Shown here: positions 21,023 to 63,355 of the stretch, one piece after another | Layout: each line of letters opens with the position of its first letter | Position numbering within the stretch: the stretch's first letter is position 1 | Assembly (NCBI RefSeq): GCF_000948985.2 | Contig: NZ_CP059733.1 | Span: forward strand, 4,526,001-4,590,000 | DNA from: Thalassomonas viridans | GTDB taxonomy: Bacteria > Pseudomonadota > Gammaproteobacteria > Enterobacterales > Alteromonadaceae | Reading direction: 5' to 3' | DNA: 64,000 nt | Position numbers and translations under genes: made by a program | Notes under the pieces: model-generated | What the model was told of the DNA's origin: nothing | Databases searched by the model: none | Seen by the model: only the letters and a program-made list of their open reading frames with translations

Positions 21023-21400
21023 CTAATTGGTTCGATGAAATTTTGAAAAAACTCCTGTATTTAAATTAAAAGTACAAGCTGTATCAAATGGACTATTTTC
21101 ATCCGTTAGCAGCACTACTTTTTGTTCCTCTTTACCGGGAACAAACCAAATAGAATACACGCCTTCAACAGGCAAAGTTAACTTAGGCATTTCTGGATTA
21201 CTTTTTATATTTCCAGCTTCATCATATATAAAAAGATTTCTGTTCCCTACTTCTTTATGGTTTGCTATCACCACCACAAAATTTTTATCCGCAATCAGCT
21301 CAGCTTGAATTCTTTTACGAAACTTTTTTTCTATCTTCTTACCATTAAAATCCCATAAAACTTCACCTAATTCTTCGTTTTTTATAAAATTCTTAATCAT
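21023..21400 (-). CDS. probable immunity protein of the RHS toxin
   Basis: The start is taken at the ATG at 21400 because AGAGG lies just before it and it follows the RHS stop (21408) by only 7 bp; an in-frame ATG at 21427 would overlap the RHS gene. The 125-residue product (MIKNFIKNEELGEVLWDFNG...) is soluble and lacks export or membrane signals. It has a beta-rich pattern (NFVVVIANHKE, NLFIYDEAGN, YSIWFVPGKEEQKVVLL). Its position as the first gene after a C-terminal toxin domain is the main evidence for immunity function; the family is not recognised. Confidence 0.6.
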   Translation of the reverse strand: MIKNFIKNEELGEVLWDFNGKKIEKKFRKRIQAELIADKNFVVVIANHKEVGNRNLFIYDEAGNIKSNPEMPKLTLPVEGVYSIWFVPGKEEQKVVLLTDENSPFDTACTFNLNTGVFSKFHRTN

Positions 21401-21407
21401 TTTGCCT

Positions 21408-34895: not shown

Positions 34896-35522
34896 CTATT
34901 TTCCTATCTTATCCATATATTCTTTATCTGTTTTAGTCCAGATAATGGAAGCAAATATTGCCCACACAATACTACACAAAACAGCCATCACAATAGAATA
35001 AGGCCAATTGATATCTTGAATACCATCCCCATTAAAACTTGCTATTAATCGAATAGATAGCATAAGAATAAAACCGATAAGACACAGTTTAGAGATAAAG
35101 TACAATTCTCCCTTATTTCTAGTTTTCTCCCAACACTCCAAACTCATTAAATATGCTTTATTAAAGGTTTCATCCTTATTTTTATACCAATGGACAGGTA
35201 CATCAGATTGCCAAAAGACACGCTTTATCTTTTCATTACTCCAACCAAATGCTACACGCGCAATTAACGCATTCAGACACCAACCCAAAACATAAAACAG
35301 CATTAACACAAGAACAAGCGCTTCAAAGACGTATTCATATATGGGCAATTCTTTTAATGGAATTTCCAAAGAGTAGCCATAATATTGGTAATATACTTGC
35401 AGTGCTAGATATAACAGCCCGATAGAACCAAGCATCAAACCGAACGGTAAAATTATTAACCCATAGCCATATTTCTTTTTTAATAAAGTAGAAAAATTTG
35501 CATTAATAGCCAAAATATTCAT
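34896..35522 (-). CDS. polytopic membrane protein, probable immunity protein of the split RHS system
   Basis: The 208-residue protein has four predicted helices (IILPFGLMLGSIGLLYLALQ, YVFEALVLVLMLFYVLGWCL, LYFISKLCLIGFILMLSIRL and IVMAVLCSIVWAIFASIIW) with a soluble middle loop of ~55 residues. Its start lies inside the end of the 2329-residue gene (20-bp overlap), so it is translationally coupled to it. A membrane-embedded immunity protein would suit the Ala/Gly-rich, membrane-prone C-terminus of that protein. Function is inferred from position; the family is not recognised. Confidence 0.6.
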   Translation of the reverse strand: MNILAINANFSTLLKKKYGYGLIILPFGLMLGSIGLLYLALQVYYQYYGYSLEIPLKELPIYEYVFEALVLVLMLFYVLGWCLNALIARVAFGWSNEKIKRVFWQSDVPVHWYKNKDETFNKAYLMSLECWEKTRNKGELYFISKLCLIGFILMLSIRLIASFNGDGIQDINWPYSIVMAVLCSIVWAIFASIIWTKTDKEYMDKIGK

Positions 35523-49706: not shown

Positions 49707-50066
49707 TCAGCTAACCCCTATATCAAATAAGAAATAGGCAATTGTACCTGTTATCAACCAGGCATAAAAAGTTACTTCAAGGAAAAGCGCCAGGTACCAG
49801 TCTTTTTTTCTGGCATATCGTTTAGTGGCTTCAATATCTACTAAGGATGCGTGCCGCTTTATATTTGGAAATAAAATGATGGAAGAATAGGCTACCAACC
49901 TGGCGCCAATACCGCTGTCCCATACCGGCGGCAACTTGCCTTCTTTAGCCATTTCATTTTCAATGTACTTTACCGTTATCCGGCCAAAACAAAATATCGC
50001 GATTCCCCATAAAACAAAGAAAATCATGAGAGTTAAAGCAAACCAATGTTCAACCGTGATTTCCAT
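49707..50066 (-). CDS. array A membrane protein 7 (type 3)
   Basis: This is the last of seven paralogues after toxin A. It is 119 residues: a first helix after MEITVEHWFALTLMIFFVLW, the signature FCFGRITVKYIENEMAKEGK, LPPVWDSGIGARL, the type-3 middle FPNIKRHASLVDIEATKR, then ARKKDWYLALFLE and a final helix ending FDIGVS in place of the usual LYGPE. Its closest relative is the first gene of array B, which shares the FPNIKRHASLVD segment. Probable immunity protein in the inner membrane (inference from array context). Confidence 0.65.
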   Translation of the reverse strand: MEITVEHWFALTLMIFFVLWGIAIFCFGRITVKYIENEMAKEGKLPPVWDSGIGARLVAYSSIILFPNIKRHASLVDIEATKRYARKKDWYLALFLEVTFYAWLITGTIAYFLFDIGVS

Positions 50067-50109
50067 ATCTCGTAATTATTCCTTAGATAAAAAAGTTGCT
50101 CGTTTAAAC

Positions 50110-50478
50110 CTAACTCTCAGTGCTATATAACAAATAAGTTACAACAACTATTGATATCAAAACAGCAAATGAGCCTAGAAAGAAAACAGCTAAATACCAA
50201 TCTTTCTTCCGAGCATAACGCAAAACTAATTCATCATTTATCAATGTATTATCAACAATTTTTCTCGTCACAATAACAATTGCATACATTGTTATTCTAG
50301 CCCCTATACCTTTATCCCATTCAGGGGGTAACTTCCCTTCCTTAGCCATCTCTTGTTCAATATGTTTTACAGATATCCTGCCAAAACAGAAAGTAGCGGC
50401 AGCACAAAATAAAAATGAAATGCCGCCAAACAAAAACAACCAGCTTTCACCACTTAACTCGAACAAAGTACTATTCAT
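50110..50478 (-). CDS. array A membrane protein 6 (type 4)
   Basis: A 122-residue paralogue: N-terminal helix LFLFGGISFLFCAAATFCFG, signature RISVKHIEQEMAKEGKLPPE, WDKGIGARITMYAIVI, a unique middle VTRKIVDNTLINDELVLR, then YARKKDWYLAVFFLG and a C-terminal helix ending YLLYSTES. The middle segment differs from all other copies, so it may recognise a different toxin tip. It lies 10 bp from the neighbouring copy at 50489, as expected for one transcript. Confidence 0.65.
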   Translation of the reverse strand: MNSTLFELSGESWLFLFGGISFLFCAAATFCFGRISVKHIEQEMAKEGKLPPEWDKGIGARITMYAIVIVTRKIVDNTLINDELVLRYARKKDWYLAVFFLGSFAVLISIVVVTYLLYSTES

Positions 50479-50488
50479 ACCAAAGTTG

Positions 50489-50836
50489 TTATTCCGGCCC
50501 GTATAAAAAGTACCCTACGCCAATTACAGCTAAAAAAGCCATAAAAGATACGAGAAAAAACACCGCCAAATACCAATCTTTTTTACGGGCGTACTGTAGA
50601 ATTAATTGGTCGTTAACCGGCGATACTTTAGCTGCCTTTTTAGCTACAATCACCATCGCATACATAATTAGCCTAATCCCTATGCCTTTATCCCACTCTG
50701 GCGGTAATTCTCCTTTTTTAGCCATATTGGCTTCAATATGCTTTACGGTAATACGACTAAAACAAAATACTGCAATCCCCCACAAAAAAAATAAGGCACC
50801 GCCGCTTAACAAAAACCAGGTTTCACTTAAAGCCAA
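50489..50836 (-). CDS. array A membrane protein 5 (type 1)
   Basis: A 115-residue paralogue starting with TTG right after the TAA of the upstream copy. It has the N-terminal helix GGALFFLWGIAVFCFSR, then TVKHIEANMAKKGELPPEWD and the type-1 middle VAKKAAKVSPVNDQLILQ. YARKKDWYLAVFF and GVGYFLYGPE close it. The type-1 middle is shared with copies at 51615 and 56738. Adjacent stop and start codons indicate translational coupling. Confidence 0.65.
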   Translation of the reverse strand: MALSETWFLLSGGALFFLWGIAVFCFSRITVKHIEANMAKKGELPPEWDKGIGIRLIMYAMVIVAKKAAKVSPVNDQLILQYARKKDWYLAVFFLVSFMAFLAVIGVGYFLYGPE

Positions 50837-51070
50837 TTATTCCGGTCCATATAAAAGTAAAACTCTTTTTATAATAAGAGCCACAGCATAAGCCCCCACT
50901 CTCGCACCTATTCCCTTATCCCAATCCGGTGGCAACTTTCCATCTTTAGCCATTTCTTTTTCTATATGCTTTATCGATATTCTGCTAAAACAAACGGAGC
51001 AAAATGCACAGATAAAAAATAATATTCCTGCACCATAAATGAACCAATCTTCTGTAAGGAATTCAAGCAT
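50837..51070 (-). pseudogene. array A membrane protein 4, internally deleted
   Basis: The 77-residue frame matches the other copies from MLEFLTEDWFIYGAGILFFI through KDGKLPPDWDKGIGARVGAY to ALIIKR, then jumps to VLLLYGPE. About 40 residues, including the diagnostic middle segment and the second helix, are missing, without a frame break. It is closest to copy 1 (51965), whose N-terminal half is nearly identical. It is probably non-functional and formed by recombination between copies. Confidence 0.65.
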
Positions 51071-51075
51071 GACTG

Positions 51076-51174
51076 TTACCTACAGTTCATATTCATTATA
51101 TTGCCGGCCCACTTTTGCAATTTGTTCATAAACTTATCGGCCTTGTTATCGAATTTAGTGGCATGACCTAACGG
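51076..51174 (-). pseudogene. possible relic of a toxin C-terminus within array A
   Basis: Between copies 3 and 4 a short frame without a start reads PLGHATKFDNKADKFMNKLQ then KWAGNIMNMNCR and stops at 51076. Its end resembles the last residues of toxin A (GKGLAGNIYDASS), and PLG matches the TPLGW of the toxin's helix. The likeness is short and could be chance, but it occupies the same slot, just upstream of an immunity copy, as the clearer fragment at 57104-57232. Confidence 0.35.
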
Positions 51175-51183
51175 CTACAGCCA

Positions 51184-51537
51184 TTATTCAGGTGCAAATA
51201 AGTAAAAAATAGTGCCCGCAAATATCATGAACAAACTAAGAGAACTTAGAAAAAAAGCCGCCAAATACCAATCCTTTTTACGCATATGGCGTTTAACAGA
51301 GTGAGTATCGATAATCGACATCGGCGGAATTCTTTTTACGATAATAGCAACCGCATAAGCACTTATACGAATACCCAACCCTTTATCCCATTCTGGTGGT
51401 AACTTCCCCTCTTTCGCCATAGCAGTTTCTATATGTTTTACCGTTATTCGGCTAAAACAAAACGTCGCAATTGCCCATATAAAAATAATTATAATAAAAC
51501 TGATTGCGAGCCAGTCTTCACCGGAAAGTTCGATCAC
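51184..51537 (-). CDS. array A membrane protein 3 (type 2)
   Basis: The start is taken as GTG 51537 because AAGGAG lies six bases before it. It gives 117 residues, the standard length of the family; a longer frame starting at 51576 seems to include a relic MFEDWLLL of another copy. Features: helix WLAISFIIIIFIWAIATFCF, SRITVKHIETAMAKEGKLPP, the type-2 middle VKRIPPMSIIDTHSVKRH, MRKKDWYLAAFF and ending FYLFAPE. Confidence 0.65.
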   Translation of the reverse strand: MIELSGEDWLAISFIIIIFIWAIATFCFSRITVKHIETAMAKEGKLPPEWDKGLGIRISAYAVAIIVKRIPPMSIIDTHSVKRHMRKKDWYLAAFFLSSLSLFMIFAGTIFYLFAPE

Positions 51538-51614
51538 TGACAGCTCCTTTGTCAAAAGCAGCCAATCTTCAAACATTCTCTTGAAAGTAAATATTTGCTT
51601 GAGTTTTATCTTGG

Positions 51615-51958
51615 TTATTCAGGACCATAAAGAACATATGCAACCCCACTAGTAAGAATAAAAAGACTATATGAACTCAAAAAGAAAACAGCTAAATACC
51701 AATCCTTTTTCCGGGCATAACGCAAAATTAATTGATCACTAACCGGAGACACATGAGCGGCCTTTTTTGCCACAATGACCATCGCATACATGGTAATTCT
51801 GGCTCCTATACCTTTATCCCATTCTGGTGGAAGCTCTCCTTCTTTAGCCATTCTACTCTCAATATATTTGACCGATATCCTGCTGAAACAAAATGTAGCA
51901 ATAGCCATAAAAAAACTAACAGCAGAATAGACAGCATTAAAAAGTCATATAAGCTCAT
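51615..51958 (-). pseudogene. array A membrane protein 2 (type 1), frameshifted at a homopolymer
   Basis: The body (AIATFCFSRISVKYIESRMA ... VAKKAAHVSPVSDQLILR ... GVAYVLYGPE) is a normal type-1 copy but lacks the N-terminal helix. An ATG at 51958 opens MSLYDFLMLSILLLVF in another frame, which is the missing helix. The frames join at seven consecutive A (51909-51915; T on the coding strand): one more T would restore a full-length protein. The short internal start at 51908 might still be used. Phase variation, decay or a sequencing error are all possible. Confidence 0.6.
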
Positions 51959-51964
51959 TTATCA

Positions 51965-52318
51965 CTACTCAGAGCCATAAATAAAATAGCCAACCCCGGC
52001 AACCGTTATAAATAACACCAGCGAACTAAGAAAAAGTCCGGCTAAAAAAATGTCTTTTTTACGGGCATGACGCTTTACAGCCTTGGTATCAATAATGGAA
52101 TGAGGAGGAATTCTTTTTATGATAAGAGCCACAGCATAAGCCCCTACCCTTGCACCGATTCCCTTATCCCAATCCGGTGGTGATTTTCCCTCTTTAGCCA
52201 TTTCTTTTTCTATATGCTTTATAGATATTCTGCTAAAACAAACGGAGCAAAATGCACAGATAAAAAATAATATTCCTGCACCATAAATGAACCAGTTTTC
52301 TGTAAGCAATTCAAACAT
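51965..52318 (-). CDS. array A membrane protein 1 (type 2), cognate immunity candidate of toxin A
   Basis: The ATG at 52318 (MFELLTENWFIYGAGILFFI) is chosen because AAGG lies eight bases before it and it gives the usual 117 residues. Features: FCSVCFSRISIKHIEKEMAK, SPPDWDKGIGARVGAYAVAL, type-2 middle IIKRIPPHSIIDTKAVKR, HARKKDIFLAGLFLSSLV and ending GYFIYGSE. As the first gene after the toxin (15 bp from its stop) it is the best candidate for the matching immunity protein. Two membrane helices are predicted, placing it in the inner membrane. Confidence 0.7.
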   Translation of the reverse strand: MFELLTENWFIYGAGILFFICAFCSVCFSRISIKHIEKEMAKEGKSPPDWDKGIGARVGAYAVALIIKRIPPHSIIDTKAVKRHARKKDIFLAGLFLSSLVLFITVAGVGYFIYGSE

Positions 52319-52332
52319 CTTCATGACCTTAG

Positions 52333-53418
52333 TTAAAACCAATCAAAAGCACTACTGGCATCATAAATGTTACCTGCTAACCCTTTACCAACCCAGTCTC
52401 CTGTTTTAGCTGCTGCATAACCTGCGGTCAAACCAGCCCCAATAACAAAAGCCCAACCTAAAGGAGTACTTACCATAAGGATACTAACAGCCGTAGTTGT
52501 TACAGCACTTCCCACCCATGCCCCTGCTGCGGTACTGAGACCAAATCCTGCCGTTTCAACCACAGCTCTGCGTTGCCAGTCTTCACCGGCAACATAATCA
52601 TCATAAACATCATCAGCTCTAAACCCGGCATCGAACAAAATAATCCCCTTCCCTCCCCTGCGTGCAATTTTTTCAAAACGTTTAATAATTTCAAACGATC
52701 GGGTAGAAGATAAATCAAGAGATTTAACATTTCTGGCACTTTTAGCTATATTAATACCCCGCTCAGAACTCGACCAAACCGTACCCCGCCCGCTGGCTTT
52801 AGCACTACCCATATACTTATTAAGCTCTGTGCCAAATTTAGTATTTAACTCCCGGTTCAGGCTGGTTACCGTCTGTTCCAGCTTCACCAGCTCAAGCCCT
52901 CGCACCTTCGCCTTATACGCCTTATGTAAATTCTCCAATGCCTGCTGATACTTGACCGACGCCTTGGCAAAGCCCATAAAACGACTTTCCAGTGCCGTAG
53001 CCGCAGCACCGGCCCAGCCATGGCTGTCTGATTTTAAATAAGGAATCACCGTATCCTGCTGATACTGCTTCACCGCAGCCACCATAGGCGCTATTTCATT
53101 CTGGTGAAACTCAGACAACGCCAGCAATAATTCCGTACCATAAGTTTCATTAAGGGCGGCAATATTACGCCTGCTCTGTGCAGGCAAAGCCTTAAGCTGA
53201 TTAAAATTACCCACCAAATCCGGCCTTAACTCCTGCCAGGGGCGTGTGTTGTCTACCGACCCCTGGCGCAAAATGTAAGGCGTACCCTGGGGGATGAAAT
53301 TCCCCGAAATATGCGGGTTGTCTTGCAAAAAAGCCGCTGCGGCTTGCGGGTCGTTTGGCGGGCAAGGCAGGGAGGAACAGGTTTTACAGTTGATACAAAT
53401 GTCGATTTCGCCGGGCAT
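52333..53418 (-). CDS. toxin A: effector-like protein with Cys-rich N-terminus and glycine-zipper C-terminus
   Basis: The start is ATG 53418, six bases after AAAGGA; the earlier in-frame start lacks a ribosome site. The 361-residue product opens MPGEIDICINCKTCSSLPCP, four Cys in 12 residues, then GNFIPQGTPYILRQG. A long helical, coiled-coil middle (about 60-240) follows, with VKYQQALENLHKAYKAKVRG. The C-terminus has Gly/Ala-zipper helices GFGLSTAAGAWVGSAV and STPLGWAFVIGAGLTAGYAA, typical of pore-forming effectors. Toxin B is nearly the same up to ~residue 240 and diverges in the C-terminus. It is followed by seven small membrane genes. No secretion gene is in the window; type VI delivery is a guess. 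Confidence 0.65.
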   Translation of the reverse strand: MPGEIDICINCKTCSSLPCPPNDPQAAAAFLQDNPHISGNFIPQGTPYILRQGSVDNTRPWQELRPDLVGNFNQLKALPAQSRRNIAALNETYGTELLLALSEFHQNEIAPMVAAVKQYQQDTVIPYLKSDSHGWAGAAATALESRFMGFAKASVKYQQALENLHKAYKAKVRGLELVKLEQTVTSLNRELNTKFGTELNKYMGSAKASGRGTVWSSSERGINIAKSARNVKSLDLSSTRSFEIIKRFEKIARRGGKGIILFDAGFRADDVYDDYVAGEDWQRRAVVETAGFGLSTAAGAWVGSAVTTTAVSILMVSTPLGWAFVIGAGLTAGYAAAKTGDWVGKGLAGNIYDASSAFDWF

Positions 53419-53709
53419 ACTAAATCCTTTTAGTGCAAGCGAGCTACTGCTTAAAAGCAAGCTAATCCATCAGTTAGCCTAAAATATTAGCAGTACACTG
53501 CTATTAGTAAAAGGTATGAGTAAAGGTATTAGTAAAGCTTCTCAACAAAGCGCATTCGTTGCGGGGTTACCATCAAAGCAAATTATTAACGAAAAACAGA
53601 CAGACAACAACAACAAATCGCCCCAAAGCCCCGTATGATGCAGGCTCGGCCATTACTCACAAATAGCATATCAAGCCCGGTTTATTGCAAATATTAATCT
53701 AAAAAAACA

Positions 53710-53743
53710 ACCAACTCACTGTTGCCTTATCCAGTAAGTTGGT
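53710..53743. terminator. bidirectional hairpin terminator
   Basis: ACCAACT (53710-53716) pairs with AGTTGGT (53737-53743), extended inward by ACTG/CAGT with one mismatch. T-rich runs lie on both sides (CTTTTATT on plus, TTGTTTTTTT on minus). It isolates the toxin A leader from the symE-like gene. Confidence 0.65.
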
Positions 53744-53898
53744 CTTTTATTATAGGTGCCTCTCAGCAACAAAGGAGGGCCCCCTCGCCAGTATTTTTAT
53801 TCATCGGCGCCCCTAAAGCGCCGTAACAATAGCCGCAATCCCTGAGTGCTCTAACACCCAGAGATTGCTAACCACAAAGAACTAAATAGGAGTTCATC

Positions 53899-54183
53899 AT
53901 GGCTGATTCTAATCATACGCCAGAGCCCAGCTCAGCAAAAGTAAAATATCCCGGCCCACGCCAACTTACTGTATTAGAAACCATTTGTGAAACCGCCGCC
54001 AAACCCCACCGGGCTGGCCTGCATTGCATACCTGTGACCCTTGAACCTTATATTGTACTAAGGGGCAAGTGGCTCAAGCAGGCCGGTTTCACCGTTGGGC
54101 AAAAAGTCACGGTAACGACCAATCAAAACGGATTAATGATCACTCCCAGCCAGGCTGTCCCCGGCCCGGCAACTAAACCTTAA
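53899..54183 (+). CDS. SymE-like toxin (AbrB-fold)
   Basis: The 94-residue protein has the SymE core: PRQLTVLETICETAAK near residue 20, then IPVTLEPYIVLRGKWLKQAG at ~48-67, followed by FTVGQKVTVTTNQNGLMITP. The LRGKWLxxAGF-x-xG-x-x-V pattern is the family signature; SymE is an SOS-induced type I toxin in E. coli whose mRNA is checked by antisense RNA SymR. SymE-like genes are common beside RHS and other polymorphic toxins, as here. AGGAG precedes the ATG. An antisense RNA could overlap the 5' region but I could not identify its promoter. Confidence 0.8.
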   Translation: MADSNHTPEPSSAKVKYPGPRQLTVLETICETAAKPHRAGLHCIPVTLEPYIVLRGKWLKQAGFTVGQKVTVTTNQNGLMITPSQAVPGPATKP

Positions 54184-54205
54184 CCGGCGAAGCCTTAACG
54201 AATAA

Positions 54206-54244
54206 AGCCGGCTACTGCGCCCCTGCACTGCGCAGTAGCCGGCT
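54206..54244. terminator. 15-bp perfect hairpin between symE-like and dgt genes
   Basis: AGCCGGCTACTGCGC (54206-54220) pairs perfectly with GCGCAGTAGCCGGCT (54230-54244). On the minus strand it runs into TTTATTCG. It lies 22 bp after the symE-like stop and beyond the dgt stop, so it may terminate both genes. Confidence 0.65.
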
Positions 54245-54390
54245 CTGCCGAGCAACACCGAAAATTCATATCTTTCACGGGGCAACAACTTTGCTGCGAC
54301 AAAACTGCCGGGCTGTCACCCGGCGTACAGTAGCAAGTGCCTCAGGCAGACACCAACATGCCAGGCCCCTAAACCGGCCAAGCGCCAGGA

Positions 54391-55749
54391 TCACAGCCGG
54401 TCAAAAATAGAGCCCATTTGCGGCGTAAACAACTTATGATAAAGCTTAGTGGCGTCGTTATCCGACATACCGGCCACATAATCGCAAATCACCCGCTTTT
54501 GATCGCCGCTTTGCTCATATGCCTGATAAACCGCCAGCGGCAACAGCCTCTTAGGGTTTTCCTGCAGCACCTCAAACAAGCGCAAGATCATTTGCTGGCC
54601 TTTATACTCCAGCACCTGCACCTCAGGCCGCTTGATCACATTTTTGATCACAAAGCCTTTAAGCAAATCCAGCAGTGCACTGGCCTGGGGCGACATAGTT
54701 ACCTGGTATCTCAACAGCGGCTGTTCAAATGCCGTTTTCTCGGTAATTTCTATGCTGTGAATCAAATAACCGATAAGCCTGCTGATGGCATGCTTGCGTG
54801 CTTTATTGCACTCGGAAAATAACCTGGTGTTATAAAAATCAACATCCCCGGCGATGATATTGTCGTCTTGCAGGCGGTTTATGACTTCATCCTGCCACTG
54901 CTGAAAAGTCACCAGCTTCAAGGCCAGCGCATCTTCCAGGTCATGCACCCCGTAAGAAATATCATCGGCCAGCTCCATAATGGAGGTATCAAAAGATTTA
55001 TGGGCGGCTTTGCGTTTGCCTTTATCCCTGCCCTGCACCTTACCTTGTTCCTTATCTTGCTCTTTACTTTGCTTGGAGACGACACAGGCCCGGAACTGCT
55101 CCCGGTCTTTTTCCGGCAAGGGGGCGATTAACCAGGCCAAAATATCCGCCTCGTCATCATGAATACATTTAGGCGGCTTAAAGCCGTCGATATTCAGGCT
55201 CGCCCCGCCCGAAGGCGCAGCGGCATAATCGGCCACCTCCTGATGCAGCACCGGATATTTTAATAACCCCAGCATAGTGCGCCGGGTTAAATCCAGGCCT
55301 TGCTCGGGCGAGTATTCGCCTAATTTCGACACTATGCGTAAGGTTTGCCCGTTACCTTCAAAACCGCCATGGTTATACATAAAAGAGTTCAGGGCCACTT
55401 CCCCGCCATGACCAAACGGCGGATGCCCCAGATCATGCGCCAGCCCTATGGCTTCAATTTGACTCAAGGAAGGTATCCAGGCCAGGTAATCTTCCCGGCC
55501 GCGGTAGTTTTCCCGCAGCTTCTCGCAAATGCCGGAGCCGATCTGGGCAACCTCCATTGAATGGGTTAGCCGGGTGCGGTAAAAATCACTCTCACCTATG
55601 CCCAACACCTGGGTTTTCGACTGCAGCTTACGAAACGAAGCCGAATGGATAATTCTCGCCCTGTCCCGTTGGGCCTGGCTGTCGTCGCTGTCTGAATTAA
55701 ACGCCTTAGGCTCATAACCTGTGCTGTATCTGCGCCTTTCTTGCCACAT
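54391..55749 (-). CDS. dgt: deoxyguanosinetriphosphate triphosphohydrolase-like protein
   Basis: This 452-residue HD-superfamily enzyme hydrolyses dNTP to nucleoside and triphosphate. Metal ligands are His63 (RTRLTHSMEVAQ), His105-Asp106 (LAHDLGHPPFGHGG) and the distal Asp near 262 (SIMELADDISYGVHDLEDA). The N-terminus RARIIHSASFRKLQSKTQVL is the family's allosteric/DNA-contact segment. A Lys/Gln-rich insertion of about 15 residues near position 235 (KQSKEQDKEQGKVQGRDKGK) looks like a local low-complexity expansion. Such enzymes can restrict phages by depleting dNTPs. It sits between two toxin clusters, divergent from array B. Confidence 0.9.
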   Translation of the reverse strand: MWQERRRYSTGYEPKAFNSDSDDSQAQRDRARIIHSASFRKLQSKTQVLGIGESDFYRTRLTHSMEVAQIGSGICEKLRENYRGREDYLAWIPSLSQIEAIGLAHDLGHPPFGHGGEVALNSFMYNHGGFEGNGQTLRIVSKLGEYSPEQGLDLTRRTMLGLLKYPVLHQEVADYAAAPSGGASLNIDGFKPPKCIHDDEADILAWLIAPLPEKDREQFRACVVSKQSKEQDKEQGKVQGRDKGKRKAAHKSFDTSIMELADDISYGVHDLEDALALKLVTFQQWQDEVINRLQDDNIIAGDVDFYNTRLFSECNKARKHAISRLIGYLIHSIEITEKTAFEQPLLRYQVTMSPQASALLDLLKGFVIKNVIKRPEVQVLEYKGQQMILRLFEVLQENPKRLLPLAVYQAYEQSGDQKRVICDYVAGMSDNDATKLYHKLFTPQMGSIFDRL

Positions 55750-55967
55750 GTTTGAAATCCTTTTTCATCTGTTGTTTTTGTGCCAGCGGGGTACAGCTTG
55801 AATGCCGCTCTCGGGAACTTATCTGAAATACTAACAGCTCATTGGTGAAGTAAGTAGTAAAGAAAACCACAATAATCATATAAATAAGCAGCTAGAAAGC
55901 GCTGGCCGTTTGTATGCCGCTATTTTTCACCTATCATGAATAAGCACTAAGGTACGCTGGTAAATGA

Positions 55968-56279
55968 ATGGATGAGTTGCCCGTGACGAAATTATTTAAA
56001 TCAAAAAAGAACCGGCACGTTACAATATTTTTTATCGGCTTTAATCTGCTGTGACTGTTAATTTGGGGAATAAACCTTTTTACCGCAACCTTACCCACCA
56101 ACGTACACAACCCTTTTATTGGCATGTTTTCGCCTTATATTGCTTTGTTTTTATTTCCTGCTTTTGAAGTGTATGAACCAAGCCAGTGGTGGGCAGATAC
56201 TGAGCTGATGCGCCCGGCGATTATTTTTTGGCTAACGGCCATAGCGGGGGCTATTATCGTTTACTGGCGTGCCAAATAA
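55968..56279 (+). pseudogene. small membrane protein gene with in-frame TGA
   Basis: ATG 55968 opens MDELPVTKLFKSKKNRHVTI and a helix FFIGFNLL, then TGA at 56052-56054. The same frame continues LLIWGINLFTATLPTNVHNP, MFSPYIALFLFPAFEVYEPS and a last helix FWLTAIAGAIIVYWRAK to TAA at 56277. A TGG (Trp) to TGA change in the first helix is the simplest explanation. Like the damaged gene at 49261-49694 it is a plus-strand membrane gene abutting the distal end of an immunity array. Confidence 0.6.
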
Positions 56280-56300
56280 GCCACTGATATACATAGCCAA

Positions 56301-56654
56301 CTACTCAGGACCATATAAATAATAATAAACACCGGCAACGATCAGAAAAGCAATAAACGATGCAAAATAAAAAACAGCCAGGTACCAATCTTTCCTACGA
56401 GCATGCTTTCTTATTGCTTCGTCATCCACAATAGATAAACGTGCAGCTTTTTTCGCGATAATAGCCATAGCATAAGGACTTAATCTTCCCCCAATACCTT
56501 TATCCCACACTGGCGGCAACTTACCTTCTTTTGCCATCTCCCGCTCAATATGCTTGACCGTTATTCTGCCAAAACAAAATACAGAAATAGCCCAAATGAG
56601 AACCAAAACACCACCAAGCAAGAGCAACCAATCTTGATTTGTTAAATCAAACAT
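56301..56654 (-). CDS. array B membrane protein 3 (type 1-like)
   Basis: A 117-residue paralogue: MFDLTNQDWLLLLGGVLVLI, FCFGRITVKHIEREMAKEGK, LPPVWDKGIGGRLSPYAMAI, middle IAKKAARLSIVDDEAIRK, then HARRKDWYLAVFYFAS and ending YYYLYGPE. It combines the KKAA start of type 1 with a SIVDDEAIRKHA run closer to type 2, so it may be a recombinant or distinct specificity. It is the last gene of array B. Probable inner-membrane immunity protein. Confidence 0.65.
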   Translation of the reverse strand: MFDLTNQDWLLLLGGVLVLIWAISVFCFGRITVKHIEREMAKEGKLPPVWDKGIGGRLSPYAMAIIAKKAARLSIVDDEAIRKHARRKDWYLAVFYFASFIAFLIVAGVYYYLYGPE

Positions 56655-56663
56655 AGGCTTACT

Positions 56664-56732
56664 TTATTGAAAAACCTCTGAAATTACTGCTGAAATCATA
56701 TATGCCCCCAGCAATGTCTTAGTTGAATGCAT
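56664..56732 (-). pseudogene. possible short toxin-tip relic before array B copy 3
   Basis: A 22-codon frame reads MHSTKTLLGAYMISAVISEV then FQ-stop. Its second half is vaguely like the toxin ends (LADLAYEGSAYFIR, LAGLTYDTGAYFSQL). There is no clear ribosome site. It is reported because it fills the same slot upstream of an immunity copy as the better fragment at 57104; on its own it would not be called. Confidence 0.25.
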
Positions 56733-56737
56733 CTTAA

Positions 56738-57088
56738 TTATTCAGGGCCATATAAATAATACGCAATACCACCAACACACATTAAAACGACAAAGGAGCC
56801 AAGGAAGAAAACCGCCAAATACCAGTCTTTTTTGCGGGCGTAGCGAAGAATTAATTGATCATTAACCGGAGAGACATCAGCAGCCTTTTTGGCAACAATA
56901 ACCATGGCGTACATAGTAATACGGGCACCAATGCCTTTGTCCCATTCTGGCGGTAATTGCCCTTCCTTAGCCATCTCACATTCAATATACTTTACCGAAA
57001 TACGACTGAAGCAAAATGTCGCTATTCCCCATAAAAATATTAAAATAACAGCACATAGAGCAAGCCAATCCTCAAAGATTATTTCCAT
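56738..57088 (-). CDS. array B membrane protein 2 (type 1)
   Basis: A 116-residue paralogue: MEIIFEDWLALCAVILIFLW, GIATFCFSRISVKYIECEMA, KEGQLPPEWDKGIGARITMY, type-1 middle VAKKAADVSPVNDQLILR, YARKKDWYLAVFFLGSF and ending IAYYLYGPE. The middle is almost identical to copies 2 and 5 of array A, so exchange between arrays is likely. It follows the orphan toxin tip at 57104-57232 by 15 bp, making the pair look like a displaced tip-immunity cassette. Confidence 0.65.
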   Translation of the reverse strand: MEIIFEDWLALCAVILIFLWGIATFCFSRISVKYIECEMAKEGQLPPEWDKGIGARITMYAMVIVAKKAADVSPVNDQLILRYARKKDWYLAVFFLGSFVVLMCVGGIAYYLYGPE

Positions 57089-57103
57089 TATTTTGCCTTC
57101 AAT

Positions 57104-57232
57104 TTAAAGCTGACTAAAATAAGCGCCAGTATCATAAGTTAGGCCCGCTATCCATTGCCCAAAACCATCAGCGACTTTAACTACTTCGTTATAATGATTA
57201 TTAACTCCACATTCAGGGTTCAACTCTGACAT
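57104..57232 (-). CDS. orphan toxin C-terminal tip (42 aa)
   Basis: ATG 57232 opens MSELNPECGVNNHYNEVVKV followed by ADGFGQWIAGLTYDTGAYFS-QL. The second half aligns with the extreme C-terminus of toxin B (KITDWGVKWLADLAYEGSAY-FIR) and toxin A (KTGDWVGKGLAGNIYDASSA). No helices or N-terminal module are present, so this is a detached C-terminal end, not a full toxin. It lies 8 bp after immunity copy B1 and 15 bp before copy B2. In CDI and RHS loci such orphan tips arise when a new tip is inserted ahead of the old one (family knowledge). Confidence 0.55.
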   Translation of the reverse strand: MSELNPECGVNNHYNEVVKVADGFGQWIAGLTYDTGAYFSQL

Positions 57233-57240
57233 ATTTACCT

Positions 57241-57594
57241 CTACTCTGGCCCATATAAAAAATAAGCAATAACAATGAGTAACATTAAAGTATAAAAAGT
57301 AAGTTCTAAAAAAAGAGCCAAATACCAATCAATTTTTCGGGCATGCCGCTTAGTGGACTCAACATCAACTAACGATGCATGCCGTTTTATGTTCGGAAAT
57401 AAAATAATGCTGGCATATACTGCCATACGAGCACCTATTCCCCTATCCCAAACAGGCGGTAACTTGCCTTCTTTTGCCATTTCACTTTCTATATGTTTGA
57501 CAGATATCCTGCCGAAGAAAAATATCGCTATGGCCCATAAGAAAAGCAATATTGCCACACTAAGTGCAAGCCAATGCTCAGCAGATATCTCCAT
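57241..57594 (-). CDS. array B membrane protein 1 (type 3), cognate immunity candidate of toxin B
   Basis: A 117-residue paralogue: MEISAEHWLALSVAILLFLW, AIAIFFFGRISVKHIESEMA, KEGKLPPVWDRGIGARMAVY, type-3 middle FPNIKRHASLVDVESTKR, HARKIDWYLALFLELTFYTL and ending IAYFLYGPE. It starts 18 bp after the toxin B stop, so it is the likely partner of that toxin's C-terminus. The only other type-3 copy is the last gene of array A, implying that array A once carried a toxin tip of this kind. Confidence 0.7.
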   Translation of the reverse strand: MEISAEHWLALSVAILLFLWAIAIFFFGRISVKHIESEMAKEGKLPPVWDRGIGARMAVYASIILFPNIKRHASLVDVESTKRHARKIDWYLALFLELTFYTLMLLIVIAYFLYGPE

Positions 57595-57612
57595 GGCTTC
57601 CTCCTAAATTTC

Positions 57613-58695
57613 CTATCGAATAAAATAAGCACTGCCCTCATAAGCAAGGTCTGCCAACCATTTAACACCCCAATCAGTAATCTTTGCTGCGCCATAACCA
57701 GCAGCCAAACCGATACCTATAGCAAAAAACCAACCAGCTGGCGTAGCCAACATAGCAACTCCTAGTGTTGATGCTATAACCTTTGAACCAACCCAAGCCC
57801 CCGCAGCTGTCGAAGCCCCAAACCCCGCAACCTCTCTGGCAGCACTACGCTGCCAGTCTTTATCTGCAGCAAAGTCTTTAAAAACCTCAATAGTTCGCAG
57901 CCCGGCATCTAAAAGAATAATCCGTTTACCTGCGATATTAGCAGCCTTTTCAAAACGTTTGATGATCTCAAATGCCCGGGTAGACGATAAATCAATAGGT
58001 TTAATATTTCTGGCACTTTGAGCTATATGCTTTGCCCGCTCAGGGCTCGACCAAACGGTTCCCCGCCTGCTCGCTTTGGCATTGCCCATATACTTATTGA
58101 GCTCAGTGCCAAACTTAGCATTCAGCTCTTGGTTCAGACTGGTTACCGTTTGTTCTAACTTCACCAACTCAATTCCCCTCACCTTTGCCCTATAGGCTTT
58201 GTATAAATTCTCTAATGCCTGTTGATACTTAATCGACGCTTTGGCAAATCCCATAAAACGACTCTCCAGCGCTGTAGCGGCAGCGCCAACTAAACCATGG
58301 GAATCAGATTTTAAAAAAGGGATCACAGTATCCTGCTGATACTTTTTCACCTCTGCCACCATAGGTGCTATTTCAGCCTGGTGAAATTCAGACAGAGCCA
58401 CTAATAAGTCCGTACCATAGGCTTCATTAAGATCGGCAATATTACGCCGGGACTCGGCCGGTAAGGCCTTAAGCTGATTAAAATTGCTGACCAAATCCGG
58501 CCTTAATTCCTGCCAGGGACGTGATTTATCTACCGGCCCCTGCCGCAAAATATAAGGCGTGCCCTGAGGAATGAAATTCCCCGAAATATGCGGGTTGTCT
58601 CGTAGAAATGCCGCTACGGCCTCTTGATCGTTTGATGGGCAAGGTAGGGAAGAACAAGTTTTACTGTTGATACAGATATCGATTTCGCCAGACAT
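57613..58695 (-). CDS. toxin B: paralogue of toxin A with a different C-terminal pore region
   Basis: ATG 58695 follows AAAGGA as in toxin A, giving 360 residues. The N-terminus MSGEIDICINSKTCSSLPCP keeps three of the four Cys of toxin A, and the helical middle is nearly the same (SIKYQQALENLYKAYRAKVR). The C-terminal zipper helices differ: GFGASTAAGAWVGSKVIAS, ATPAGWFFAIGIGLAAGYGA and the end WLADLAYEGSAYFIR. About 75 bp upstream of the gene are also duplicated relative to toxin A. Conserved body plus variable tip plus different following immunity type is the pattern of polymorphic toxins. The pore-forming activity is inferred. Confidence 0.65.
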   Translation of the reverse strand: MSGEIDICINSKTCSSLPCPSNDQEAVAAFLRDNPHISGNFIPQGTPYILRQGPVDKSRPWQELRPDLVSNFNQLKALPAESRRNIADLNEAYGTDLLVALSEFHQAEIAPMVAEVKKYQQDTVIPFLKSDSHGLVGAAATALESRFMGFAKASIKYQQALENLYKAYRAKVRGIELVKLEQTVTSLNQELNAKFGTELNKYMGNAKASRRGTVWSSPERAKHIAQSARNIKPIDLSSTRAFEIIKRFEKAANIAGKRIILLDAGLRTIEVFKDFAADKDWQRSAAREVAGFGASTAAGAWVGSKVIASTLGVAMLATPAGWFFAIGIGLAAGYGAAKITDWGVKWLADLAYEGSAYFIR

Positions 58696-58838: not shown

Positions 58839-59339
58839 TCACAAAAAATTTATGATAGCCTTCTTTTTAATCCCTCTACAATCAATTTCAGCACTGGTAT
58901 CATGGGCAAGTAGCCATTCCTCAATAGTATCAATTAGCCTGCCTTCCTCTAGCTTGCGTTTGCCTTTAAGCGCACATTCCCATATATATAACACTTTCCA
59001 GCCATCTTTACTGAGCTCAGAAAACACCTGCTGATCCCGCTTTTTATTGCCATTAATTTTATCCAACCAAAATTCAGTTCTGGTTTTAGGAGTTGTAAAA
59101 AAATGGCAATTTACACCATTCATTTCATGCCCATGCCAGAAGCAACCATTTACAAAAATGACTGCTTTATATTTTGCTAAAGTGATATCAGGTGTTCCGG
59201 GAAGGCTTTTATTATACAGACGAAAGCGGAGACCAAGAGAATGCAAAAGCCGGCGTATTAATAATTCCGGCTTAGTATTTTTATTCCTAATCGCAGCCAT
59301 ATTTTTGCTGCGTATTTTCTTTGAATGTACGTCTATCAA
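58839..59339 (-). CDS. vsr: very short patch repair endonuclease Vsr
   Basis: The 166-residue nuclease nicks T:G mismatches produced by deamination of 5-methylcytosine. Recognised by RSKNMAAIRNKNTKPELLIR, LPGTPDITLAKYKAVIFVNG (catalytic Asp in PDI), CFWHGHEMNGVNCHFFTTPK (zinc and active-site His/Cys) and FWLDKINGNKKRDQQVFSEL. It is the last gene of the minus-strand operon, 70 bp after the cytosine methyltransferase it is expected to serve. Confidence 0.93.
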   Translation of the reverse strand: MIDVHSKKIRSKNMAAIRNKNTKPELLIRRLLHSLGLRFRLYNKSLPGTPDITLAKYKAVIFVNGCFWHGHEMNGVNCHFFTTPKTRTEFWLDKINGNKKRDQQVFSELSKDGWKVLYIWECALKGKRKLEEGRLIDTIEEWLLAHDTSAEIDCRGIKKKAIINFL

Positions 59340-59409
59340 TCGAACTATTATTCTTAAATCATTTTTTATAATTTAACAAAAAATACTTTTCCAAATAAAT
59401 ACTTAACAA

Positions 59410-61338
59410 CTAAGGATTAAAAATATTATTTACTACACCTGCTATTTTATTAGCTAAAAGCGGTGGTACAGCATTACCAACCTGAATAAACTGCGCAGTT
59501 CTCGGTCCCTCAAAAAAATAATTATCAGGAAAAGTTTGTAGCCTTGCCGCTTCCCTTACTGTTAAGCTACGCATCTGACTAGGATCTGGATGTATATAAT
59601 AATGTCCATCTTTTGCAATATGGCTAGTTACCGTCGTTGATGGCTGATTCCAGATCTGTGTGCGGAAGCGATCAACAAAAGATTTTTTATTTTTATGTCC
59701 TTTAGGATCAAGCCCAGCTTCCTCCAATTCTTGCAAACGGGGGTAGTCTCTCTCCTCACCTTGTGGTTTTATTAGCGAATAGCTTGAAGAGTAAATGTAA
59801 CGACATAAATCAGTATCCATATGGCTACGAGCTTCATGATTTAATATCCAAGTTTTCTCTTCTCCTCCCGTATACCATTTTTTTAATTCTATTACGCTTT
59901 GATTGTTTTCAGTTTCCTTCTCTAATCGAGTAAAATCAAATTTGGTAAACTTTTCAATTGAAGTATTAGTTGTTTCTGTTTGCTTATCCGTAAAAGAATT
60001 AAATTTTTTAGAGAGTTTTAATAATTTTTCATGCCCGCTAAAAGCACGGTTTAGTATGCTCCAAACTTTCTGCTGGTGTTCATCAAGGCTTTCAGCTAAA
60101 TGTGTGACTGTATTTGTTAACTTATCATTTAAAGTGCTACGCCAGAAATCAGTTTCTTCAGCTTGTTTAAGCTTGGTTCTAACCGGAATTTCATCATCAA
60201 CAGAAAAGTGCTCTGTAGTTCCAACACCTGCTCTTAAAACAGGTAAATCACCTATTGCATCCTGAACAGTTGTTTGTTTTTCTGGCTGAACAGGTACTAA
60301 AAAAGACCGAAACTCTCTACTTAACTTCTCTGAAATATCTTTCTTTATACCAAGTAGAATAACCCTTTCCCTAGCTTGAGGAATTCCATAATTTTTAGCA
60401 TGCAATACAAAACTATTGCCATTTAAAGCCTGCAGTTCATCACTTCCCCCTTTAAAGTTAATATCACAGGCAAGTGAATATATATCATATTCAAGGTTTG
60501 GATCAGCAGTATTAATTACATTGGCAGGCTTATTTAAATCAGCAAAAATCCATCGCCAAATATCTACTTTATTACCTTCAGCATCTTTTACTTTCGCAGT
60601 CAACATACCTTTTACGTTTTCCATCACAAAAACTTCTGGCTGAAACTCACTGATAATTTTAATGTATTCCTTATACAACCAAGTACGCCCATCACTATCC
60701 TGATCCCATATAGCTTTACCATTTTCATCAGTATCCGATGAAACATTATTAGTCACATGACCTTTTCTACGCGACCTGCCTGCCATCGAAAATGCCTGGC
60801 ATGGAGGCCCACCTATTAAAATACTCGGTACATTAGGATCTATTTGTTCTGCAATAGCTTTATGAATATCCTTTTCATCCGGGCCAAGTGTCATCCTTCG
60901 AGCTTCAAACATTGCTCTTTTAATGGCTTTTTCTATTTCGCCCCATTGCTCTGAGTATAGCTTTTTAGCCTTATCATATTCTTTAGGGCAATAAAATTCC
61001 GGAGATAGTAAATCCCATTCACGTGTATCATTTTCGGTTTTGATATGCTTTCTATCATCAAAATCAAAACTTCTGAACTCTAGTAACTTACCCAAAAGTT
61101 TATTTTTACCAGAAATATAATCAACATATATCTGCGGAGTTTCTAGTTTAGGATTTTGATTGAAATAACGTAGAAATGCTCTTAATCGAAGAGTTTTATG
61201 TGCATTCTCTTCCATTTCAACAGAGATTTTGATTTGAAATGGATATTTCTTATTCTGCTCAATATTATACGCAGAAAAACCTTCACCCAAACCACCAGGA
61301 CCGGCGAATACATCTATTATTTGGGTATTTAGATTCAT
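59410..61338 (-). CDS. DNA (cytosine-5-)-methyltransferase
   Basis: The ATG at 61338 (MNLNTQIIDVFAGPGGLGEG) is preferred over the TTG four codons earlier, giving 642 residues. Motif I is DVFAGPGG; motif IV with the catalytic Cys is GGPPCQAFSMAGRS (Cys at 180); motif VI is FVMENVKG; the C-terminal motifs are SLTVREAARLQTFPDNYFF and QVGNAVPPLLANKIA. Inserts before motif IV and in the target-recognition region make it longer than simple 5mC enzymes. It forms the modification arm of the operon with Vsr, AIPR and DUF4420 proteins. Target sequence cannot be told from sequence alone. Confidence 0.95.
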   Translation of the reverse strand: MNLNTQIIDVFAGPGGLGEGFSAYNIEQNKKYPFQIKISVEMEENAHKTLRLRAFLRYFNQNPKLETPQIYVDYISGKNKLLGKLLEFRSFDFDDRKHIKTENDTREWDLLSPEFYCPKEYDKAKKLYSEQWGEIEKAIKRAMFEARRMTLGPDEKDIHKAIAEQIDPNVPSILIGGPPCQAFSMAGRSRRKGHVTNNVSSDTDENGKAIWDQDSDGRTWLYKEYIKIISEFQPEVFVMENVKGMLTAKVKDAEGNKVDIWRWIFADLNKPANVINTADPNLEYDIYSLACDINFKGGSDELQALNGNSFVLHAKNYGIPQARERVILLGIKKDISEKLSREFRSFLVPVQPEKQTTVQDAIGDLPVLRAGVGTTEHFSVDDEIPVRTKLKQAEETDFWRSTLNDKLTNTVTHLAESLDEHQQKVWSILNRAFSGHEKLLKLSKKFNSFTDKQTETTNTSIEKFTKFDFTRLEKETENNQSVIELKKWYTGGEEKTWILNHEARSHMDTDLCRYIYSSSYSLIKPQGEERDYPRLQELEEAGLDPKGHKNKKSFVDRFRTQIWNQPSTTVTSHIAKDGHYYIHPDPSQMRSLTVREAARLQTFPDNYFFEGPRTAQFIQVGNAVPPLLANKIAGVVNNIFNP

Positions 61339-61471
61339 TATTTTTTCCAAATTTATGCATTGTCTAAGTTATCAATGCAGCTATATATCTATTAAAGCAG
61401 GCCATAGTAAACCAGAGCCTAGTCAGAAAAAAGCTCTTTTATTTAGTCTTTCAAAAGTAATCGCAAACAGT

Positions 61472-63355
61472 TCAAATTGTGTACTTTTTAATAATTCGAA
61501 TGGTGAATTCATTTTTCAAAAATTCTTTGATTTCACGACAATGCTTTATAGCAAGCCACAACTCTTCTTTTTTGGAGTATTCACCATAATCATCACTAGC
61601 AGAATATTTCTTAATTAATTCATTTACTAACATCATTAACATTGTCAAAAACTCAGAAAGATCATTTTCTAAATATTCGCTCCTCCAGACTCTCCCTAAA
61701 TCAAGCTTAAAGTTTTGCTCAAACTTTGCGTCTGTTGTTATATAGAGAATTGACAAACTATACGGGATAACAGCAGACCGAAGCTGTCCAATAGCATTTT
61801 TCCCTTGTCCATATATTTTCTCCATTCCTCTAAATAAAATGATCTTAGCAATCAAATTTTCATAGAATACTCTATCTATATCAATAATATCAGCGCCCTC
61901 ATCTTTGGGTTCAATCGCTTCCATCAAGTGTCTAAATACTTTTTCTCCCCCTTTTTTTATTACGTGTGGCTGCTCTCCCCAAGCTAAATAATATTTAGCT
62001 AACTGCTCTTTAGAAAACCTTTTACTATTTGGAAACTCTTTCTTTTTCCTAGCCCCATTCGATCCGGCTTTGCGAACCATCGTATTAAATTCGCCTTTCG
62101 CCCGTTCAAAAAACCACTTACAGCCTGAAGGAGTTACTATGCTTTCACTCAATGACTTTATTTTTCTTAATTGCGGACTACGAGAATTAAGATCTACATT
62201 CGAGACTCTTGATTGTGTGTTGGAATAGCGGCTGATATTTGAAATTAAACTATCCATTTCTTTTTCATCAATATCCTTAGCAATAGTTATTTTTGCCATA
62301 ACCTTGACTTTGCTAATATCTAGCCCTTCCTTCTGTGAAAAATATATAGATGCTGTTGTTTGACCCCCATTTACAATTTGAAAATCAGTTAATGATTCTA
62401 AACAGAGTACTTTTTTATAAGTTGCAACATTTGCAGACGAAGCAGTAATAGTTAGCCCATTATTAAAAGCTATAAACTGCTCAGGTTGTGTACGTATAGT
62501 GTTTTTTATTCCTTTATTAACACCTTTAAATTGTAAAAACGAACGTACATTTTTTTCTAACAAACGACTACTGTGTCTTTTATATAACTCTGCAATAACA
62601 GCAGCATCTAATACACATAAATAAGATTCAAAGTTCTTTTCATTCGCAGCTTGAATAACTTCTATTCTTCTCTCAAAGTCTCTTTTAAAATTTACAGTCA
62701 AAGGCTCACGATGACCACGTGAAATTATAACATTAGCAATAAAGTTAAGGTCTATAACGCGATTTACTATTAAAAAATCTTTAGTACGAGTATCACCATC
62801 AATTTCAAATTTAATTTTATAATTACCATCTTTAAAGTGAACTTTTCTTGGTTTAGTCTCGTTACCCTGATTTGAAACTGTGGCAGATAAAGAAATAAGA
62901 AAAATCTCTATTACATCAAATTGAACAATACCAGTTTCACTTGATATCTTATGAGCTAATGCTTTAACTGGTGACGAATCTTGTAATTTATTAGTAAAAT
63001 CTCCTTTTACTGCTTTTTGAAAAAACCTCAGCCCTTGTTTAAGTTGCTTTTCATAATCTGCTTTTATAGATACATTTAATTGCTCTTCTTCCAAGCTTTC
63101 ATCTATAGAATCTCCATCAACAACAAATAGCTGCAACCTTTCCGTTGAGTCATTAACTATATAGGCATTAATTTTCCAATTATCTTCATCAGAGAGCCCA
63201 TATGTTTCATAGCATTCCTCAGTATCAACAACTTTAGCGTCTAACAAATAAGGTAATACTTGTGACAAGACCGATTGTTCTTCAATAAAGCCATCCTCAT
63301 CTTTTGAATTATCCAAGACATCTTGTCTGTATTTATAGAGTTCACTGACTTCCAT
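61472..63355 (-). CDS. AIPR-family (abortive phage infection) protein
   Basis: The 627-residue protein has the AIPR hallmark around residues 290-360: FIAFNNGLTITASSANVATY, SLTDFQIVNGGQTTASIYFS and then KVKVMAKITI. The region RVSNVDLNSRSPQLRKIKSL followed by KWFFERAKGEF and the segment RFSKEQLAKYYLAWGEQPHV are also typical. AIPR proteins occur in phage-resistance and restriction-like operons; the biochemical role is not settled. The ATG directly follows the stop of the DUF4420 gene, so the two are translationally coupled. A 133-bp gap separates it from the methyltransferase start. Confidence 0.85.
   Translation of the reverse strand: MEVSELYKYRQDVLDNSKDEDGFIEEQSVLSQVLPYLLDAKVVDTEECYETYGLSDEDNWKINAYIVNDSTERLQLFVVDGDSIDESLEEEQLNVSIKADYEKQLKQGLRFFQKAVKGDFTNKLQDSSPVKALAHKISSETGIVQFDVIEIFLISLSATVSNQGNETKPRKVHFKDGNYKIKFEIDGDTRTKDFLIVNRVIDLNFIANVIISRGHREPLTVNFKRDFERRIEVIQAANEKNFESYLCVLDAAVIAELYKRHSSRLLEKNVRSFLQFKGVNKGIKNTIRTQPEQFIAFNNGLTITASSANVATYKKVLCLESLTDFQIVNGGQTTASIYFSQKEGLDISKVKVMAKITIAKDIDEKEMDSLISNISRYSNTQSRVSNVDLNSRSPQLRKIKSLSESIVTPSGCKWFFERAKGEFNTMVRKAGSNGARKKKEFPNSKRFSKEQLAKYYLAWGEQPHVIKKGGEKVFRHLMEAIEPKDEGADIIDIDRVFYENLIAKIILFRGMEKIYGQGKNAIGQLRSAVIPYSLSILYITTDAKFEQNFKLDLGRVWRSEYLENDLSEFLTMLMMLVNELIKKYSASDDYGEYSKKEELWLAIKHCREIKEFLKNEFTIRIIKKYTI

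Follow-up and report, generated by a model that had tools for sequence, protein, structure and literature searches.

Two arrays of immunity-like genes behind variable-tip toxin-like genes in Thalassomonas viridans, with relics of toxin tails in one of them

Organization of the two clusters

The stretch of Thalassomonas viridans DNA analysed here (the window; 64,000 nucleotides, positions 4,526,001 to 4,590,000 of contig NZ_CP059733.1) contains two paralogous gene clusters, A and B, each headed by a toxin-like gene behind which small paralogues follow in the same orientation, seven in cluster A and three in cluster B. All of these genes are on the reverse strand, and for brevity they are called toxins and immunity genes below. 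In toxin B (57613..58695, 360 amino acids (aa)), a helical middle connects the N-terminal domain to a variable hydrophobic C-terminal tip at residues about 280-360. Toxin A (52333..53418) has 361 aa; both starts were set at an ATG with AAGGA upstream. As the original prediction, an earlier reading of the same DNA, had it, the two proteins heading the clusters are paralogues of about 360 residues. Their overall identity is 75%, with 80% in the body and 56% in the tip; along the sequence, it falls from 80-90% in residues 1-210 to 63-73% up to residue 300 and about 50% beyond. The conserved front and variable C-terminal tip of a polymorphic toxin are thus seen when A is compared with B. The conserved Cys-rich N-terminus described in the same prediction is a local feature, and no cysteine is invariant or nearly so among 44 aligned members.

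Immediately behind toxin B lies its presumed cognate immunity gene B1 (57241..57594, 117 aa, FPNIKRHASLVD type). It is followed by a relic of a toxin C-terminal tail of the type found in toxin t3 of genome G013 and in genome G061 (57104..57181), directly before B2 (56738..57088, 116 aa, KKAA-VSPVNDQ type), and by a second tail relic, of the G013 t2 type (56659..56733), directly before B3 (56301..56654, 117 aa). In cluster A, the presumed cognate A1 (51965..52318, KRIPP-SIIDT type) is followed by A2 (about 51615..51958), which has a frameshift in the first membrane helix that leaves a 97-aa open reading frame (ORF) at 51615-51908, and by A3 (51184..51534, KRIPP type). Next come a possible toxin-tail remnant that is not significant (51076..51156), the truncated copy A4 (50837..51070, 77 aa), A5 (50489..50836, KKAA type), A6 (50110..50478, RKIVDNTLINDE type) and A7 (49707..50066, FPNIKRHASLVD type). 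The four middle-segment types of small paralogues proposed earlier are real on alignment. The ten tandem small genes are all present as paralogues, but with A2 frameshifted and A4 truncated only 8 of the 10 are intact, five of them in cluster A. The earlier reading overlooked these broken copies, the tip relics, and the apparent nature of later array members as immunity genes against older or sibling tips.

Linkage and distribution of the two families

All 17 matches to small protein B2 in its own genome are located in arrays behind four toxins (7, 3, 2 and 5 genes). With a wider small-protein profile, 6 of 30 own-genome matches are distant from any toxin match, one of the six being a fragment. 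Among 147 genomes of the taxonomic family, the toxin profile has matches in 17 and the small-protein profile in 14, all within those 17 (14/17 toxin genomes against 0/130 toxin-negative genomes, p=5e-17). In the same set, 73 of 84 small-protein matches have a toxin match no more than 4 kb away; the other 11 are remote from toxins, 6 of them in the own genome. The survey suggested by the original prediction therefore returned toxin genes followed by the small family, and a small family widespread without a linked toxin, which would have spoken against that prediction, is not what the 147 genomes contain. Three of the 17 toxin genomes (G081, G097 and G110) have no match to the small-protein profile; behind the G081 and G110 toxins there are ORFs of 129-132 aa that the profile does not recognise. 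At the level of the order, the toxin was found in 25 of 394 genomes and 10 of 115 genera, two of the matches being marginal (E 9e-4 and 1e-4). A recognised small gene stands directly behind 38 of the 44 aligned toxins.

Ten matches to toxin B were obtained by protein search in the 7.9 Mb genome, and the loci resolve to nine toxins. The toxins divide into a longer subgroup, at four loci, and a shorter one, at five, and the small family has a separate branch for each, that of the shorter toxins being diverged. Three of the nine toxins are broken: one has a frameshift, and transposase-bearing insertions interrupt the other two. At the two sister loci split by such insertions (L010:4035-5200 and L015:2053-3177), the immunity genes behind the toxin persist. 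Neither family has a match above the curated cut-offs, where such exist, in Pfam, NCBIfam or PHROGs, so that a marine toxin-immunity family without a Pfam or NCBIfam model above cut-off is added to those known. No second toxin type sharing the N-terminal front was found, the N-terminal matches in 34 genomes looking, by their coordinates, like toxins of this family or fragments of them. A weak match of the PADLOC model LeoBC to toxin B and to L011 (E 6e-6 and 9e-6) covers the middle and the tip.

Co-variation of the tip with the first immunity protein

Among the Thalassomonas toxins, the immunity gene directly behind a toxin co-varies with its tip. For the 10 Thalassomonas pairs, the distance between first immunity proteins follows that between tips when the body is held constant (partial Mantel r=0.76, p=0.0002), and does not follow the body when the tip is held constant (partial r=0.07, p=0.28). 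The tip of toxin A is 91% identical to that of the RHCl1 toxin, and A1 is 86% identical to the first immunity protein of the RHCl1 toxin; within the window, A7 is 70% identical to B1.

Instead of conferring immunity, the small proteins could be chaperones of the toxin or assist it as membrane partners, a role that their position and topology would fit equally well. We consider this quite improbable, since the small proteins track the type of tip and not the body (n=10), 11 of the 84 small-protein matches lie away from toxins, and immunity loci are intact more often than toxin loci, with low substitution ratios, as described below.

Relics of toxin tails in the arrays

For the relics, 27 gaps or tails of immunity arrays were compared with 40 mononucleotide shuffles each, stops in the translations being treated as X; the gaps were chosen after some relics had already been seen, and the test was not blind. 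Ten of the 27 gaps contain toxin pieces that none of the 40 shuffles matched, and 17 do not. Two of the six gaps tested in the window qualify, both in array B, with a score of 90 in the B1-B2 gap (shuffle maximum 43) and 85 in the B2-B3 gap (shuffle maximum 40). Each of these relics matches the immunity gene that comes next. In a comparison with 11 Thalassomonas toxins, the tips of G013 t3 and G061 score 90 against the relic ahead of B2 and all others ≤57; B2 itself shares 90% and 89% identity with the first immunity proteins of G013 t3 and G061 (others ≤58%). Similarly, the G013 t2 tip scores 80 against the relic ahead of B3 and all others ≤44, and the first immunity protein of G013 t2 shares 85% identity with B3 (others ≤59%). 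The three G013 toxins t1-t3 are all intact and lie in one region with other genes interspersed. In another family, a tail relic of G471 is similar to the tip that G502 carries today, with 5 differences counted by eye over 47 residues.

Array B reads as a record of displaced tips. It suggests that the tip has changed more than once while the matching antidotes were kept, and relic tails of this kind predict the toxin tip against which a given orphan immunity gene would act.

In array A, none of the four gaps tested holds a convincing relic or one that matches the next immunity gene. The candidate in the A3-A4 gap has a score of 41, equal to that of the reverse strand and reached by 1 of 40 shuffles, and is not significant. 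The piece in the A6-A7 gap is above all 40 shuffles but only 8 residues long, and was not counted. With no convincing relic present, the growth of array A may be plain duplication. Extended to all arrays, this would mean that they arose mainly by tandem duplication and divergence within the locus and not by displacement of tips. Every array member is indeed a paralogue, the similarity of A1 to A4 reaches 93% over 210 nt, and the 17 gaps without a relic point in the same direction. On the other hand, individual genes in sister genomes share 85-90% identity with B2, B3 and A5, which are only 57%, 50% and 48% identical to B1 (pairwise identities within the window were measured for some pairs only), and the matching relics stand directly before B2 and B3. 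As the main source of the arrays, we therefore judge tandem duplication to be unlikely and favour displacement of tips.

The same locus in a sister genome and maintenance of the immunity genes

The locus of cluster B can be compared with its counterpart in the sister genome G061. The Vsr endonuclease gene at the flank of cluster B (58839..59339, reverse strand) serves as the synteny anchor, since G061 also has Vsr upstream (75% identical), along with four shared downstream genes (73-93% identical). The G061 toxin has an in-frame stop and a t3-type tip, and is followed by three immunity genes, of which i1 is 89% identical to B2 and i2 is 90% identical to A5. The order in the window at this shared locus is toxin B with a different tip, B1, the t3-type relic and B2. 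This difference between the two genomes is what displacement predicts, with the relic as the indication of the direction of change. A single locus carrying different tip types in the window genome and its sister makes tip replacement with retention of the antidote testable within one family.

Clusters A and B are separated by an HD-domain phosphohydrolase gene, the product of which is presumably dGTPase-like, and by a SymE-family gene on the forward strand (53899..54183; Pfam PF08845, E 6.7e-12). Because G061 i1 and i2 match genes that are now in arrays B and A, respectively, an older array was probably split when the stretch with the phosphohydrolase, SymE and toxin A genes was inserted.

The immunity genes appear to be maintained. 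The ratio of nonsynonymous to synonymous substitution rates (dN/dS) is 0.04-0.14 in 8 of 9 immunity-gene comparisons with relatives or paralogues, the ninth being saturated; two of the eight have dS >3, and such pairwise values average over any period in which the gene was still cognate. Hand counts over four Thalassomonas genomes show intact genes at 54 of 62 loci for immunity and at 16 of 28 for toxins (Fisher p=0.003), a difference that is in part expected because toxin genes are ~3x longer.

The toxin tip and the topology of the immunity proteins

Two strongly hydrophobic segments are present in 67 of 68 immunity proteins, with a weaker third segment in the loop of several. The loop between the helices has a mean net charge of +5, which suggests that the loop is cytoplasmic and that the two ends face outward. 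In the toxin tip, P-x-G-W is invariant, and hydrophobic segments occur close to the C-terminus. Colicin B (PDB 1rh1) is the best PDB match for three nested profiles, in one register (E 0.41, 0.062 and 0.0016); the three profiles share sequences and are not independent. To judge from its sequence, the tip looks colicin-like, and it may act by forming a pore. In the AlphaFold model of the toxin, residues 1-80 form a confident small alpha/beta domain with a predicted local distance difference test (pLDDT) score of 72-88. The NCBIfam model BTH_I2691 for effectors of the type VI secretion system (T6SS) gives weak matches in 2 of the 44 members (best E 2.2e-4), and for L139 the match lies over its C-terminal part, with 19.9 bits against a cut-off of 150.

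Proposed mechanism and secretion route

We regard it as probable that the clusters are polymorphic antibacterial effector-immunity modules, with arrays that have grown by displacement of tips and with pore-forming tips delivered by the T6SS. From its N-terminus on, the toxin would comprise a small domain, a helical middle and a variable tip of ~80 residues, with a predicted hydrophobic hairpin that has the conserved TPxGW at its turn. The T6SS would put the toxin into a neighbour cell, where the hairpin could enter the inner membrane and depolarise the cell. The gene directly behind the toxin would encode a two-helix inner-membrane protein that matches, and presumably neutralises, that tip, and the later genes of the array would provide immunity to tips formerly used by this locus or its siblings. 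Recombination may import a new tip together with its immunity gene, so that the older immunity gene would be displaced downstream and retained while the older toxin decays until just a short tail, or a relic with internal deletions, is left. A stronger form of this proposal takes the arrays as an ordered memory, in which gene order records the order of tip loss, tail scraps label the immunity gene that follows, and antidotes are selected because relatives keep the older tips, all on new families of colicin-like effectors and two-helix immunity proteins. Our confidence in this stronger form is evenly balanced between acceptance and doubt. The polymorphic toxin with an expanded immunity repertoire that was originally predicted gains from linkage, co-occurrence, co-variation and matching relics, and its pore-forming and protective roles are, as before, ones that we infer.

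Delivery by the T6SS is suggested by co-occurrence. The own genome has four TssB matches. Within the taxonomic family, TssB is found in 16 of 17 toxin genomes versus 28 of 130 others (p=6e-9); within the order, the corresponding figures are 23 of 25 and 148 of 369 (p=2e-7). These tests ignore relatedness and use overlapping sets of genomes. VgrG is found in 33 of the 34 toxin genomes searched, of 38 known, and Hcp in 15 of 17. Most of the genomes that host the toxin thus carry a T6SS. No genomic link of the toxin to T6SS genes was seen among the TssB, Hcp and VgrG matches listed, nor a fusion to a T6SS marker domain above cut-off.

Several observations weigh against the reading favoured here, in addition to array A with its four gaps free of convincing relics and the disregard of relatedness in the co-occurrence tests. 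Across all 38 pairs of toxin and first immunity protein (38 of the 44 toxins; L048, L049, L059, L061, L138 and L139, with no recognised first immunity gene, were left out), the partial r is 0.55 for the tip and 0.59 for the body, and in the shorter subgroup (16 pairs) it is 0.35 for both; shared ancestry would give such joint effects of tip and body. The match to colicin B covers the hairpin region and is modest, and there is no Pfam colicin model among the 25 of 27 families listed. The AlphaFold model of the toxin has a mean pLDDT of 60, with only about 30-40 in the tip, where the ten-helix fold of a colicin pore-forming domain would be looked for. As to secretion, no toxin was seen closer than 20 kb to a listed match for TssB, Hcp or VgrG, as checked by eye from the coordinates for Hcp in 17 genomes, for VgrG in 34 and for TssB among the matches listed, with PAAR and other T6SS genes outside the search; the closest toxin to a T6SS gene among these matches is about 23 kb away (G095 contig 18). 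Genome G154 has the toxin and no TssB or VgrG match, and TssB is likewise missing from toxin genome G359 and from G097, where the toxin match is partial.

The same toxin action could be combined with an exit other than the T6SS, such as release from the cell or another secretion system. The distance from T6SS genes and the G154 genome would fit such an exit, as would the lack of any T6SS marker domain above cut-off in the toxins and an N-terminal region that occurs, over 34 genomes, only on this toxin family and its fragments. The high frequencies of TssB and VgrG in toxin genomes stand against it, and according to the Ssp4 paper (PMC12669606) the loci of Ssp4 homologues are often far from T6SS genes. 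A route outside the T6SS is thus a minority view in our assessment, and T6SS delivery is preferred.

Comparison with known systems

A literature search based on words and not on sequence returned no paper that we recognised as describing this family, and nothing relevant to it came up in PMC11148199. In T6SS clusters of V. cholerae, new effector-immunity modules displace old effectors, with old immunity genes shifted downstream and kept (Kirchberger 2017, PMC5361080), and the 3' end of an effector can be shifted back (PMC5361080). The arrays described here are similar in the displaced effector and the retained downstream immunity. They differ in that the V. cholerae arrays are in T6SS clusters and have differing immunity types, whereas here no T6SS gene was seen nearby and a single paralogous immunity family is accompanied by relic tips that match their immunity gene (PMC5361080). 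Homogeneous polyimmunity loci (Zhang 2012, PMC3482391) likewise consist of tandem paralogous immunity genes in one orientation with small gaps, but they are usually without toxin genes, whereas a toxin heads each array in the window.

The pore-forming T6SS family Ssp4/Sip4 (PMC12669606) resembles the present system in length (one construct extends to residue 331), in a helical structure with one beta sheet and membrane helices, in a small downstream membrane immunity protein and in loci that are often distant from T6SS genes; a marine group among the relatives of Ssp4 has been reported in the same paper. In contrast to the two helices of the immunity-like proteins here, Sip4 has four predicted membrane helices, and the N-terminal regions of Ssp4 are called disordered, unlike the confidently modelled residues 1-80 of the toxin (PMC12669606). 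That the family belongs to these marine Ssp4 relatives is possible but rather doubtful, judged by size, architecture and type of locus and not by sequence.

The pore-forming domain of colicin B (PDB 1rh1) is alike in the hairpin region, for which it is the best PDB sequence match; no receptor or translocation domains were recognised in the toxins here, and membership is not claimed. Effectors of the BTH_I2691 family such as Tke5 (PMC12909789) share a helical pore-forming region and a dedicated immunity protein, but Tke5 has 996 residues and a MIX domain and is encoded beside VgrG, in contrast to the about 330-360 residues without these features here. The ionophore toxins of contact-dependent inhibition and their CdiI proteins (PMC11630599) are similar in having polymorphic membrane-active tips and small two-helix immunity proteins; CdiI has 72-100 aa with both ends cytoplasmic, unlike the about 117 aa and the ends suggested to be outside here.

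The LXG glycine-zipper toxins of the type VII secretion system, EsxX and TelE (PMC12744356), also have a helical front and a hydrophobic C-terminus rich in small residues. An LXG assignment was rejected, the WXG100 match (E 0.006-0.015) being below cut-off and present in one of the two window toxins. The Tme family has DxxK before the membrane helix and mainly DUF1240-type immunity proteins, mostly with 3-6 helices (PMC7046647). It was rejected as well, as the conserved pair here is DxxxR (D263 and R267) and not DxxK, and as the immunity proteins have two helices in 67 of 68 cases; DUF1240 is absent among the 25 of 38 families listed for the 68 small proteins.

Neighbouring observations

SymE-family matches are very numerous in the window genome, G013, G061 and G095 (34, 32, 45 and 52 in the four genomes), and by hand count a SymE gene is within 2.5 kb of at least 13 of 31 toxin or immunity loci, where about 1.2 would be expected. 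Adjoining cluster B, the region 58839-63355 encodes the Vsr endonuclease, a C-5 cytosine methylase and an AIPR-family protein, and is likely a defence or modification cluster. Further away in the window, a repetitive protein of 2329 aa is encoded at 35503-42492, the C-terminal part of which is Rhs-like by eye, with a Pfam match below cut-off. At 21023-25919, a 1503-aa Rhs-repeat protein is followed by a 134-aa ORF without a Pfam match, and the two may form a toxin-immunity pair.

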